DNA of 40,137 nucleotides, taken from assembly GCA_023954815.1 (NCBI GenBank), contig JAGSHB010000035.1, positions 1-40,137 on the forward strand. Reading direction: 5' to 3'. A program made the position numbers and the translations under genes. This DNA comes from Myxococcales bacterium. Its GTDB lineage: Bacteria > Myxococcota_A > UBA9042. This document shows positions 27,445 to 32,419 of this stretch, piece after piece; position 1 is the first letter of the stretch, and the number at the start of each line of letters is the position of its first letter. Below the pieces are notes generated by a model. That model had not been told where the DNA came from. It did not search any database and worked only from the letters and a program-made list of their open reading frames with translations.

Positions 27445-27488
27445 CAGCGTGCGGCGTCATTAAAATGACTGTCGCAGCACGATGCTAG
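27441..27488. terminator. Bidirectional terminator-like palindrome
   Basis: Nested arms CTAGCA/TGCTAG (27441-27446, 27483-27488), GTGC/GCAC (27449-27452, 27477-27480) and GTCAT/ATGAC (27456-27460, 27465-27469) around the loop TAAA, with small mismatches between. It fills the 40 bases between two convergent genes and includes both TAG stops. T-runs are short, but the symmetric stem suits termination from both sides. Confidence 0.55.
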
Positions 27489-28165
27489 CTGTAACGATCC
27501 TCGCGCCAGGGGTAGGCGGTCATGGAATAGCCGCGTTGCTCCCAGAATCCCGGGCGATCGCCGACCAAGACCTCGATTCGAGAGATCCACTTGCTGCCCT
27601 TCCAAGCGTAGAGTTGCGGCGTGATCATTCGGACCGGACCGCCATGCTCGCTGGGCAGGGGCGCGCCCTCCCACGAATGCACGAGCAAGACGTCGTCCTT
27701 CACGGCCTCGGCCAAAGAGACGTTGGTCGTGTAGCCGTCGTAGCCGTGGCACATCAGATGCGAGGCGTCATCAGCGAGCCCGGCGGCGGTCAGTAGCGTC
27801 GACACGCGAACCCCGCGCCACCGCATGTCGAGTTTTGACCAGGTGGTGACGCAGTGAAAATCGCTGATGTCCTCGACCTGCGGGAGGGCGAGCAAATCGG
27901 CGAATGTCAGGGTGAGCGGCACATCTACGGCGCCGTCGACATGCAGACGCCAGCTGGACTGGTCCACATCGGGTGTGATGCCCAGATCGAGCACCGGCCA
28001 CTTGCGGACGACGCGCTGGCCCTGCGGCACCGTCGGCATGCCATGGCGATTGGTGGGGCCGTTGCCCAAGGGCTCGCCATCGGTGACCGACGGCGTCTGG
28101 GCAGCGCGCGCCTTGTGTCGAGCGATTCGCCGGATGCGAGCCTGAATTTGCGGGCTGTCACTCAC
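27485..28165 (-). CDS. Sulfite-oxidase-fold molybdopterin oxidoreductase, no export signal
   Basis: SUOX/MsrP-like catalytic domain (226 residues). The Mo-coordinating Cys is Cys105 in FHCVTTWS, and the fold markers are LRVDGAV-like (WRLHVDGAV), RWRGV, GYDGYTTN, EHGGPVRMI, YAWKGSKW and GFWEQRGY at the end. Related MsrP proteins carry a Tat signal; here no twin-arginine signal is visible, so it may be cytoplasmic. The start is GTG 28165, whose GTGA overlaps the upstream stop by four bases (coupling); a TTG at 28192 is less likely. Substrate unknown. Coupled to the ArsC/Spx-like gene. Confidence 0.9.
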   Translation of the reverse strand: MSDSPQIQARIRRIARHKARAAQTPSVTDGEPLGNGPTNRHGMPTVPQGQRVVRKWPVLDLGITPDVDQSSWRLHVDGAVDVPLTLTFADLLALPQVEDISDFHCVTTWSKLDMRWRGVRVSTLLTAAGLADDASHLMCHGYDGYTTNVSLAEAVKDDVLLVHSWEGAPLPSEHGGPVRMITPQLYAWKGSKWISRIEVLVGDRPGFWEQRGYSMTAYPWREDRYS

Positions 28166-28527
28166 GAAATCGACTCGAAAAAGGCCGCCCAATCGGGCTC
28201 CTTGAACCCCACGAGCACACCCTGATCAGCAACGAGCAACGGCCGCTTGATGAGCTTACCGTCGGCTGCCAGCGCCGCGAGCTGCGCTGCCTCGCTCATC
28301 GACGGCAGCCTGTCCTTGAAGCCGCCGCCGCGATACGACTGCCCGGAGGTGTTGAAAAAGCGCTTGAGCGGCAATCCGCTCGCCTGCCACGCCTGCTGCA
28401 GCTGGGCCGCGGAAGGAGGCTGCTCGACGATGTGGACCACGTCAGCTTCCACGCCGGCGGCAGTGAGCCACTTGAGGGCTTTGCGACAGGTGCTACATCC
28501 CGGGTACTGGTAGATGGTGGTGGCCAT
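28162..28527 (-). CDS. ArsC/Spx-family thioredoxin-fold protein (YffB-like)
   Basis: 121-residue glutaredoxin-like protein of the ArsC/Spx/YffB superfamily. The CxxC motif is at Cys11-Cys14 (YPGCSTCRKA) and the KRPLLV segment with the following VGFKE is the family hallmark. The family includes arsenate reductases, Spx regulators and uncharacterised reductases; no Ars operon genes are near, so arsenate reduction is not supported over other roles. The ATG at 28527 has AGGAG 5 bases upstream, preferred over the GTG at 28533. Overlaps the following sulfite-oxidase-fold gene by four bases, suggesting a redox link. Confidence 0.9.
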   Translation of the reverse strand: MATTIYQYPGCSTCRKALKWLTAAGVEADVVHIVEQPPSAAQLQQAWQASGLPLKRFFNTSGQSYRGGGFKDRLPSMSEAAQLAALAADGKLIKRPLLVADQGVLVGFKEPDWAAFFESIS

Positions 28528-28594
28528 GAACACTCCTGCTGTGACGTTCGGTTAGGGTGCGCCCCCAGTCATCGTGGGCGCTGGCGCAATCTAG

Positions 28595-29422
28595 CTACCA
28601 CCCGCCGTCTTGTTCGAGGTCATCGAGGGCGTCGAGCACGCGATTACGTTCAGCTTTGGACACGCCGCCATCGCCGGTTGCAGCCGATTGCTCACCATCG
28701 GAGCCGGGCGGCGCGTCACCATGGGTCACAGCGCTCGTCGTGCGCGCCTTGGACCGACGAACCGTACGCGCCAACAGCAAGCCGAGGCCGAAGATCGCGC
28801 CGCCAATCAGCAGCGCGGGCACCATCCAGCCGCGCTTTTTTTGCCGTTTGGGCAGCAACCACTCGCGCTTGATCTGCTCGCGAGCGCTGTGGGTGGCGTT
28901 GTGTTCTGCGTGGTAGTAGTCGATGAGCTCGTCGGTCGAAAACCCCATGGCAAGCCAAATGCGCGCGCGCCGCTTGTAGACGACCGCCGGTGTGCACGAG
29001 AGCTGGCAGTTGGAGAAGTAAACGGTGGCTTTGCACCCCTCACAGGTACAGCGCACGTTCTGCAGGAACCACGTGTAGCGCTTGTTGTCGTAGCGCAGCA
29101 TGCGCTCGTACTCAGGCGACCGGGTAAGAAAGTTCTTTTCCACCGCCAGTGCCAGCTGCGTACGACTCGCCTTCGGTCCCAGCCCAGCGACGGCTGCGCT
29201 CAGGTCCTTGCGCGCGTTGGCCGCGAATGGGCAGTCACAGGACGCGGGCGCCAAGCTGCGAGCCTTGTCGATCGTCAGCTCTGTGCCGTCAAAACACGCA
29301 CACGCCAGCGCTGAATGCAGCGATGCGGCGTCAGCAGCGTACGCACGTCCCCCCAGTGGCCCGACCATCGTGGCAAACACGGTAGCAAACAACAGCGCAT
29401 GACGAACAGACATCACTTTCAT
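28595..29422 (-). CDS. Exported CcmH-like Cys-rich membrane protein
   Basis: 275 residues: signal peptide (cleavage near AYAA, residue 30), then CAC...CDC (Cys41, 43, 62, 64) and a CcmH-like segment. That segment reads RCTCEGC (Cys125, 127, 130), SNC (139), LSC (143), then a helix with LAMGFSTDELIDYY, echoing CcmH's RCxxC...dSN...G.sdeEIldy. A membrane helix (about 201-219, VPALLIGGAIFGLGLLLA) and a charged acidic tail follow. CcmH/NrfF proteins handle apocytochrome thiols; here the RCxxC is changed to RCxC and extra Cys pairs are present, so the role may differ. No other ccm gene is nearby. The SD AAGGAG lies 9 bases before the ATG, partly inside a CCTTG-CAG-CAAGG dyad (29434-29446). Confidence 0.75.
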   Translation of the reverse strand: MKVMSVRHALLFATVFATMVGPLGGRAYAADAASLHSALACACFDGTELTIDKARSLAPASCDCPFAANARKDLSAAVAGLGPKASRTQLALAVEKNFLTRSPEYERMLRYDNKRYTWFLQNVRCTCEGCKATVYFSNCQLSCTPAVVYKRRARIWLAMGFSTDELIDYYHAEHNATHSAREQIKREWLLPKRQKKRGWMVPALLIGGAIFGLGLLLARTVRRSKARTTSAVTHGDAPPGSDGEQSAATGDGGVSKAERNRVLDALDDLEQDGGW

Positions 29423-30287: not shown

Positions 30288-30530
30288 ATGAACCGCAAAG
30301 ATATGATGAAGACCTTGGGCATCGCTGTTGTAGGCATCGCTCTCGGCGCTGGAACCGCCTCCGCTCAGTCCCTCGTCGACTCGGCTCCTGCATCGGTCAA
30401 GGCCGGCTGTGGTGGCAAAGGCGGCTGCGGCGGCAAAGGCGGCTGTGGCGGCAAGAAGGCTGCTCCTAAAAAGGACGCCAAGAAAGACGCCAAGAAGGAC
30501 GCCAAGAAGGCAGAAGCCAAAAAGAAGTAG
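30288..30530 (+). CDS. Exported Cys-repeat peptide, probable RiPP precursor (bufferin-like)
   Basis: 80-residue peptide. A basic N-terminus and hydrophobic core form a Sec signal peptide with cleavage expected after TASA (residue 26). The mature part has three consecutive 6-residue repeats GCGGKG/GCGGKG/GCGGKK (Cys41, Cys47, Cys53) and a Lys/Asp/Ala tail of KKDA units. The SD AGGAGAGG (30273-30280) is strong. Directly downstream is a DUF692-DUF2063 protein, the enzyme/partner pair that converts precursor cysteines in bufferins and HvfA peptides. By analogy this is the substrate, with its signal peptide acting as or within the leader. It is not similar at a glance to BufA1 (DUF2282) or to the EGKCG repeats of HvfA. 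The modification itself is inferred. Confidence 0.85.
   Translation: MNRKDMMKTLGIAVVGIALGAGTASAQSLVDSAPASVKAGCGGKGGCGGKGGCGGKKAAPKKDAKKDAKKDAKKAEAKKK
30405..30506 (+). repeat. In-gene tandem repeats of the precursor
   Basis: Three 18-base units (30405-30422, 30423-30440, 30441-30458) encode the GCGGKG/K repeats and differ at only a few bases. Three 12-base units (30471-30482, 30483-30494, 30495-30506) encode KDAK. Such repeats can grow or shrink by slippage, changing the number of cysteines. Confidence 0.85.
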
Positions 30531-30552: not shown

Positions 30553-30595
30553 TAGGATGGGTCGGGTCTGTTGGGCTCGACCCATTCTGCTTTTT
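30553..30595 (+). terminator. Intrinsic terminator/attenuator between precursor and enzyme genes
   Basis: Stem 30553-30568 with 30574-30589 (about 16 pairs including G-U pairs; core ATGGGTCG/CGACCCAT), 5-base loop, then C and TTTTT (30591-30595). It lies 23 bases after the precursor stop and 28 bases before the enzyme start. It would make abundant precursor mRNA with limited read-through into the enzyme. An in-frame ATG at 30557 lies inside the hairpin and is not the enzyme start. Confidence 0.8.
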
Positions 30596-30622: not shown

Positions 30623-32419
30623 ATGACACCACCGCCCGCTAATCGTTGGGGTTTGCCGGACCTGGGCCTGGGTCTCGGGCTACGCACACAACACATCGAG
30701 ACGATTTTGGCGGAGGAACCAGACGTCGGTTGGTTCGAGGTGATCACCGAAAACGCGCTGCATCATCGGGGATGGTACCGGTCGACCCTCGCGCGCCTGC
30801 GGGAGCGATACCCCATCGTGCTGCACGGCGTTTCACTGTCCATCGGGAGCGCCGATCCCCTCGATATGGACTACCTCAAACAAGTCAAAGCGCTAGCGGA
30901 CGAACTCGCTGTGCCGTGGCTGAGCGATCACGTGTGCTGGACGGGGGTGCGCGGGCAAAATAGCCACGACCTGCTGCCGGTTCCCTATGACGAAGCGACC
31001 CTGGCGTGGATGGTGGCGCGCATCCGGCAGGTGCAAGACGTGCTGGAGCGGCCGTTGATGCTGGAAAACCCCTCCAGCTACGCGGAATTCAGCTCGACCA
31101 CCCTGACGGAATGGGATTTTATCGCTGAAATGGCTGAGCGCGCGGATTGCGGGCTGCTGCTCGACGTCAACAACATCTACGTCAGCGCCATCAACCACCA
31201 CTTTGATCCGATGGACTACCTCGCGGCGATTCCCTGGGACCGCGTGACGCAATTTCACGTCGCCGGGCACACCAACCGCACCAGTCACCTATTCGATTCG
31301 CACATTGGCCCTGTCATCGAACCGGTCTGGGAGCTGCTCCGCGTCGCGCTGGCACGTTCCGGTGGTCGGGCGACGATGCTCGAGTGGGACGACGAGATCC
31401 CCGACTTTGATGTGGTGTGGCAGGAGGCCAAGCGGGCGGAGCCATGGATTGCCGAGGTGCGGGCGCACACCTCACAAGGCGCCCCCACAGTGCACAGTCG
31501 CCCATTCTCATCCCCCAGTGGCGACGCCGATCCGAGCGCTGTACACCATCTACAGACATGGTTCTTGGATGCCATCACGGGTCAGACTCAGCCCACTCCG
31601 ACCGAGATCAAGGGCTTTGTGCTGGCCAACGACAAGATGACGGCTCAGATGCGACTGACCGTATATGAACGGATGGTTAGCGCCAGATTGCATGAAGCGA
31701 TGCAGGAGGATTTTCCCGCGACGTTGGCGACCGTTGGCTCAGAGCGGTTCGGTGAGTGGGTGACGGCGTATTTGCGCGCGCATCCGTCGCATCACTGGGC
31801 GTTGGAGCGCTTGGGAGCTGATTTTGCGGGCTGGATCGCCAGATCTGACGCTTCGGACAAAGAGCAACTGAGCGCCTTAGCCGCGTTGGAGTGGCAGCTC
31901 GTCACCACGGGCTGGGAGCCTTGGCAGGCGCCGGTCACCGCTGGTGCCCTGGCCACCGTTCCGCCCGACCGCTACGGCGACCTGATCCTCCACAAGGCGC
32001 AGACCACGTGGTTAGGCACGGCTGACGCCGCCGCTGTGCAGGCCATCGCCAGCGCGTGGGAGAGCCGGGTGGAAGGCGCCCAATCACAGGACGTAGGGTC
32101 GCTAGATGCAGGGTCGCTACATGCAGGGTCGCTAGAACCAGCGGCGTTGGAAGCAACGTCCCTGGGCGACGATTGCGTGCACGTTGTGATCTATCGCGCT
32201 GGATGGACGGTCGATATCCGCACGTTGTCCACGGCCGAAGCTGCGGTGCTGGAGGCGCTGCTCTGTGGCGCGCCCCTCGGCGACGCAGTGGTGAAAGCCA
32301 GCGAGCGGGGTGACGCCATCGCCGCGGAGATTGCCGCGTCTCTCGGCCAATGGACCCAGCGCTGGGTGGCCGATCAAGTGGTGACGGGTCTGTCTCTCGC
32401 GGAACCTACGCCCGCTTGA
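30623..32419 (+). CDS. bufB: DUF692 multinuclear iron oxidase fused to DUF2063 partner (BufB-BufC/HvfB-HvfC type)
   Basis: 598 residues. Residues about 10-285 are a DUF692/MNIO TIM barrel with the conserved metal-site residues: His68 (LHGVSLS), Asp102-His103 (LSDHVCW), Glu148-Asn149 (LENPSSY), Asp181 (DVNNIYV), His192/193, His212 and His216 (FHVAGH), Asp225/His227 (DSH) and Glu254 (EWDDEIP). About 312-598 are DUF2063, the precursor-binding partner, here on the same chain with a repeat linker (GSLDAGSLHAGSLEP). MNIOs convert precursor cysteines (for example to thiooxazole or oxazolone/thioamide groups). Partner proteins are usually separate genes. The ORF overlaps the convergent PhnA-domain gene by 14 bases. 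Chemistry here is inferred from the family. Confidence 0.93.
   Translation: MTPPPANRWGLPDLGLGLGLRTQHIETILAEEPDVGWFEVITENALHHRGWYRSTLARLRERYPIVLHGVSLSIGSADPLDMDYLKQVKALADELAVPWLSDHVCWTGVRGQNSHDLLPVPYDEATLAWMVARIRQVQDVLERPLMLENPSSYAEFSSTTLTEWDFIAEMAERADCGLLLDVNNIYVSAINHHFDPMDYLAAIPWDRVTQFHVAGHTNRTSHLFDSHIGPVIEPVWELLRVALARSGGRATMLEWDDEIPDFDVVWQEAKRAEPWIAEVRAHTSQGAPTVHSRPFSSPSGDADPSAVHHLQTWFLDAITGQTQPTPTEIKGFVLANDKMTAQMRLTVYERMVSARLHEAMQEDFPATLATVGSERFGEWVTAYLRAHPSHHWALERLGADFAGWIARSDASDKEQLSALAALEWQLVTTGWEPWQAPVTAGALATVPPDRYGDLILHKAQTTWLGTADAAAVQAIASAWESRVEGAQSQDVGSLDAGSLHAGSLEPAALEATSLGDDCVHVVIYRAGWTVDIRTLSTAEAAVLEALLCGAPLGDAVVKASERGDAIAAEIAASLGQWTQRWVADQVVTGLSLAEPTPA
32094..32138 (+). repeat. 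Three 15-base tandem repeats in the DUF2063 part
   Basis: Consensus CAGGGTCGCTAGATG, three in-frame copies (32094-32108, 32109-32123, 32124-32138) encoding GSLDA-type units. They form a linker between the folded DUF2063 segment and its C-terminal subdomain. Confidence 0.8.

Follow-up and report, generated by a model that had tools for sequence, protein, structure and literature searches.

All pairs of an MNIO and a DUF2063 protein that are characterised in PMC13097082 install thiooxazole. Such pairs were reported in PMC12452194 and PMC13097082 to form thiooxazoles on Cys in copper-binding peptides, in which a signal peptide replaces the typical leader. For FonBC, one characterised relative, PMC13097082 states that some non-Lys residues before Cys are tolerated and that a small residue after it is preferred. 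The window analysed here (the whole 40,137-nt stretch from a Myxococcales bacterium) carries a small Cys-containing peptide gene beside a gene for a fused MNIO-DUF2063 protein. We consider it likely that this peptide is matured into a metal-binding RiPP of the bufferin (captophorin) type; its Cys residues would be turned into thiooxazoles and hold copper in the envelope. In one family of lake-dwelling myxobacteria, the three-unit precursor seems to represent a lineage-specific bufferin variant that had not been described before.

The precursor ORF (30288..30530, + strand; 80 aa, MNRKDMMKTLGIAVVGIALGAGTASAQ...KAGCGGKGGCGGKGGCGGKKAAPKKDAKKDAKKDAKKAEAKKK; 10 homologues) is preceded by the ribosome-binding-like sequence AGGAGAGG. 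Its N-terminus, MNRKDMMKTLGIAVVGIALGAGTASA (30288..30365, +), reads as signal-peptide-like, with a basic n-region, a hydrophobic core and an AxA site, and probably serves as leader as well. T9, L10, A13, G16, G20 and A21 in this region are invariant among the 11 homologues. Export may follow the Sec or the Tat route, and the MNRKDMMK of the window peptide could be the remnant of a Tat-like start. The precursors of the sister branch (ORFs upstream of the MNIOs of L015 and L016) begin with MNRRDFSK and MTRRDLEK, Tat-like starts that score under the curated cut-off. Such RRDF/RRDL N-termini are unusual, bufferins having been described as Sec-exported.

The core GCGGKGGCGGKGGCGGK (30405..30455, +) contains the proposed modification sites Cys 41, 47 and 53. 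Tandem Repeats Finder detected two arrays. The first has an 18-base period and spans 30399-30454 with 3.1 copies (89% match); the second, with a 12-base period, covers 30471-30510 with 3.3 copies (92% match) and lies within the Lys-rich low-complexity tail of KKDA repeats (30456..30527, +; net charge +8). Arrays and translation thus agree with the initial annotation, which had described three near-identical 18-base units with Cys six residues apart and a separate 12-base KKDA repeat in the tail. Between the three units, the GCGGK parts show synonymous differences only; the third unit ends in KK, vs. KG in the others. A two-unit DNA pattern gave two overlapping matches in the 6.44 Mb genome, at the precursor only, and the reversed-pattern control gave none in the same genome. 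The chance expectation is about 2e-5 per genome by a zero-order estimate.

The enzyme gene (30623..32419, +) encodes a 598-aa chain in which, judged from profile matches and a structure model, an MNIO is joined to DUF2063 and, at the C-terminus, to an RRE-like domain. The ATG at 30623 was preferred as start because the one at 30557 would overlap a hairpin. The MNIO domain (PF05114; 30668..31441, +) scored 341.6 bits against NCBIfam MNIO_BufB (cut-off 310), with an agreeing fold match, and fell below the cut-offs of HvfB (252 vs. 360 bits) and MbnB (34 vs. 325 bits). The DUF2063 domain in the same chain (PF09836; 31550..31837, +) was matched over cut-off at 65.6 bits, and this part also gave a partial HvfC match (E 3.5e-8). 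The AlphaFold2 model reached a mean pLDDT of 90 and a pTM of 0.88, and its MNIO part matched the structures 3bww, TglH and MbnB. The strands and helices modelled after DUF2063 would fit an RRE; the matches listed for the model include no solved RRE. The accessible sections of the two main MNIO papers (PMC12452194, PMC13097082) contain no mention of MNIO and DUF2063 in a single chain that we could find. His68, Asp102, His103, Glu148, Asn149, Asp181, His212, Asp225, His227, Glu254 and Asp256 are invariant among 26 aligned MNIOs and represent the putative metal ligands together with a putative catalytic Asp256.

A terminator-like hairpin followed by TTTTT lies between the two genes (30553..30589, +; fold z = -3.1). 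Around the gene pair, we found no sigma-70-type promoter upstream and no inverted repeats, and the Rfam search gave nothing beyond an sX6 match below threshold. Within the operon we saw neither a DoxX gene nor a sigma factor or copper gene. On the opposite strand, window positions 27485-29419 (-) upstream encode an Oxidored_molyb protein, an ArsC-like protein and a CcmH/NrfF-like protein (the last recognised by eye from a CxxC and one transmembrane stretch).

We searched 53 related genomes, including a profile search, and recovered 10 more precursors built from these three units. All eleven come from one Myxococcota family and have exactly three Cys units; in genome G018 the third unit is one Gly short and the three Cys are kept. 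Ten genomes have all 17 codons of the core; variation among them touches 13 codon columns and is synonymous throughout (0 nonsynonymous). The core is under strict purifying selection. Across the 11 precursors, tail length spans 24-87 residues and net tail charge +2 to +8. The initial annotation had suggested copy-number evolution of the modification sites. Since every precursor carries three Cys units, the number of sites is fixed, and it is the Lys/acid tail that varies in length and copy number. The same annotation proposed that the basic tail binds polyanions. An antimicrobial or surface-binding peptide that attaches to LPS or nucleic acids through its tail would suit the +8 of the window peptide, but the other ten tails are mixed-charge repeats (KKDE/KKEEP/KKDDGVA, net +2 to +5) of variable length, often ending in Pro/Ala. 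We regard this role as very improbable.

The two-unit DNA pattern was also scanned across GTDB with one genome per species (84,980 species). The three-unit motif, seen as two overlapping pattern matches, is confined to the one Myxococcota family, and the genomes with it derive from lake metagenomes, as far as their titles tell. Most of the remaining two-unit matches were rejected as wrong frames or as proteins rich in Gly, Cys and His for which the DNA examined showed no MNIO. The sole MNIO precursor among them is that of an Acidobacterial locus (L086). A phosphatidylethanolamine-binding-like protein (by eye) of the Myxococcota genome G007 (L093 / L076) contains, as an insertion, a (CGGK)n, GGCGGKG-rich loop; no MNIO was found in that genome, and the resemblance is probably due to chance.

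The precursor adjoins the MNIO gene only in the window. In the other ten genomes it lies on a different contig, with no MNIO within several kb around it; this holds even in the well-assembled G008 (50 contigs). In genomes of genera g4, g6 and g8 the precursor gene sits upstream of rsm22 (PF09243) in conserved synteny; in G017 the contig breaks at the rsm22 position, and in G011 the neighbours are different. In g6 a second small secreted protein, Lys/Glu-rich and Cys-free (MKLIAKTL...; L044:7289-7576 (-); L118, L119, L120, L121, L122), is encoded between the precursor and rsm22. It resembles the precursor tail without the core.

Among 22 genomes of the family, 11 have both precursor and fused MNIO, two have the enzyme only (G003, G004), nine have neither and none has the precursor only. 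The precursor thus occurs in 11/13 genomes with the fused enzyme vs. 0/9 without it (Fisher p=2e-4, uncorrected for relatedness; the counts are not independent because the genomes are related draft MAGs). Within genus g8, G016, G018 and G021 have both genes, and G010, G013 and G019 have neither; G013 and G019 hold other, more divergent MNIOs. No recognisable precursor was found anywhere in the genomes of G003, the nearest enzyme relative (68% identity), and G004. A candidate from G003 (C576) was rejected as a GCGLKQ minisatellite in an ORF without signal peptide. Searches for Buf1 in the 22 family genomes and for BufA2 in the precursor-bearing ones found no match, which leaves no rival standard substrate.

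The window peptide could instead be an unmodified Cys/Lys-rich peptide, secreted for metal binding or as a structural element, that lies next to an MNIO by accident. Such an accident would fit the 10/10 homologous genomes in which precursor and MNIO are not adjacent and rsm22 or unrelated genes stand beside the precursor where readable. Against it are the complete co-occurrence with the fused MNIO, even within genus g8, Cys repeats and a signal peptide of the MNIO-substrate type, and the Acidobacterial L086, whose Buf2-like precursor contains GCGGKG units and immediately precedes an MNIO. We therefore hold an unmodified peptide to be unlikely. The initial proposal of an MNIO precursor is very probably correct, given the adjacent MNIO in the window and the co-occurrence in ten other genomes. 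The prospect that the motif might be abundant far from MNIO genes, which would have counted against this, was borne out for position (10/10 homologues are non-adjacent) and failed for abundance, the three-unit motif being confined in the GTDB scan to one family and always accompanying the fused MNIO. Unlinked bufferin precursors are known in general, according to PMC12452194.

We placed the enzyme in a maximum-likelihood tree of 26 MNIO domains. The family (13 rows, support 100/98) groups with L086, L015 and L016 at 87/91, and the peptides encoded upstream of these three have CKG-type or CKx motifs. A separate clade (99/95) contains L019, L020, L021, L022, L024 and L031, including enzymes with EGKCG- or SCG-type neighbours. 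It was reported in PMC13097082 that Lys-Cys enzymes are marked by Arg-Arg and Phe250, and that Cys-Lys enzymes have Asp at 250. In the window enzyme, R21-T22 (30683..30688, +) align with FonB R15-R16, Thr22 taking the place of the second Arg, and D256-D257 (31388..31393, +) align with the catalytic base D249 and with F250, so that Asp257 stands at the Phe250 site as in Cys-Lys MNIOs. By tree position and predicted active-site residues, the system belongs within the Buf2 ("Cys-Lys") branch and outside the EGKCG/oxazolin branch. Descent from EGKCG/oxazolin precursors, suggested by the precursors of class relatives, was rejected on the basis of the tree and the Arg16 position.

On pattern and tree, the CGGKGGC unit is best read as the Buf2 unit CKGKGGC with Lys+1 replaced by Gly, a step that we infer because repeats so short cannot be aligned with statistical weight. 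The L086 precursor carries GCGGKGGCGGKDGCSGK, with its GCGGKG units, ahead of Buf2-like CKGxGSC/CKGKGGC repeats, and partially matches BufA2 (46.5 bits, cut-off 60). It is possibly an intermediate. Other Cys-repeat ORFs that look undescribed precede MNIOs in class relatives, namely (GGCPTDAAGGCPAGCPTDA)n and SCGAGSCGGEKK (L021, ORF ending just before 847; L026; L031:1059-1319). At L019:1140-1382 (+) in genome G026, a precursor beside an MNIO-DUF2063 fusion matches the SbtA profile TIGR04081 at its N-terminus (31.5 bits, cut-off 30.5). MNIO-DUF2063 and radical SAM enzymes may share one leader type.

The MNIO might instead modify the window peptide by other chemistry, such as formation of an oxazolone-thioamide or a different oxidation of Cys, and the product might serve a purpose different from copper buffering. 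The Gly-Cys-Gly-Gly context is not among the motifs described in the accessible MNIO literature, and the residue at the F250 site differs within the family (D, F, E, Q), which would leave room for a different product. On the other side, the enzyme is related most closely to BufB-type MNIOs that have DUF2063 partners, a group in which every case characterised in PMC13097082 yields thiooxazole. The GCG context of the core would also be compatible with the FonBC preferences. We judge a different chemistry to be improbable and favour thiooxazole formation. As the initial annotation had supposed, no description of the motif as an MNIO substrate was found in the literature searched.

In the proposed pathway, the RRE-like part of the fusion would bind the N-terminal signal/leader in the cytoplasm, and the multi-iron MNIO domain would take four H per Cys, turning each Gly-Cys into a 5-thiooxazole. 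The peptide would then be exported, and in the envelope its three heterocyclic thiols could capture copper, or a different soft metal, and so lower metal stress. The Lys/Asp/Glu/Pro tail would act as a soluble, unconstrained spacer. The intergenic hairpin may let the precursor be made in excess of the enzyme. In the sister genera the precursor gene, located elsewhere in the genome, is presumably modified in trans. The system would descend from the Buf2 (Cys-Lys) branch by conversion of a CKGxGGC unit to CGGKGGC.

Mining for MNIO products has mostly sought a precursor just before the enzyme gene. Such searches would miss this precursor, which in 10/11 genomes does not share a contig with its probable enzyme. 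It may stand unremarked among the hundreds of unclassified small Cys precursors in Table S2 of PMC12452194. With its three sites, Cys residues that lack a neighbouring Lys and a partner fused to the enzyme, the family is also a natural case for testing which features a bufferin requires.

The bufferin/captophorin class is already known, and the three-unit precursor has those class features that can be read from sequence but fails the BufA2, DUF2282, HvfA and SbtA profiles; no curated precursor profile matched it. Methanobactin is made with an MbnB-type MNIO, and the window enzyme scores far under that cut-off. SbtA thio(seleno)oxazole peptides (TIGR04081) share the predicted product chemistry but are made by the radical SAM enzyme SbtM (PMC11002830), and the SbtA leader profile does not match the window peptide. 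Buf1 bufferins (DUF2282, PF10048) have the enzyme class and the presumed function in common with the window system; DUF2282 is absent from the window peptide and from the 22 family genomes. EGKCG oxazolins and fontiphorin (HvfA, NF050188/NF050137) share tandem short Cys-Gly repeats, secretion and an MNIO with DUF2063. They differ in a Lys-Cys motif with Glu, a five-residue unit and Arg-Arg MNIOs on a separate tree branch, whereas the window enzyme has Arg-Thr; an HvfA match, EGKCG repeats and an Arg-Arg/Phe MNIO are all absent from the window system. From captophorins and bufferins at large, the locus has an MNIO encoded with the precursor, a DUF2063 + RRE partner (PME1; the RRE read from model topology) and a Cys-rich precursor with an N-terminal signal peptide as read from the sequence. 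Closest is Buf2 (BufA2, NF050166; "Cys-Lys" captophorins), with a signal peptide, several Cys at a Cys-x5-Cys pitch (CKGKGGC vs. CGGKGGC), and a BufB-type MNIO with DUF2063 partner, in agreement with the enzyme tree and Asp257. The NF050166 profile gave no match to the window precursor up to E = 10 and none in genome G000. Buf2 precursors have 6 or 12 conserved Cys and Cys-Lys, whereas the window precursor has 3 core Cys, each before Gly; unlike Buf2, the window system has tandem perfect repeats, a Lys/acid tail, an enzyme-partner fusion and a usually unlinked precursor. We tentatively propose, as a reading that is about as open to doubt as to acceptance, that these bufferins form a subfamily of their own, whose synthase, MNIO and DUF2063 in a single chain, acts, usually in trans, on a precursor encoded at another chromosomal site. 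The three fixed Gly-Cys sites of the precursor, at a six-residue pitch, would form one defined metal site, and its dispensable tail would expand and contract freely.
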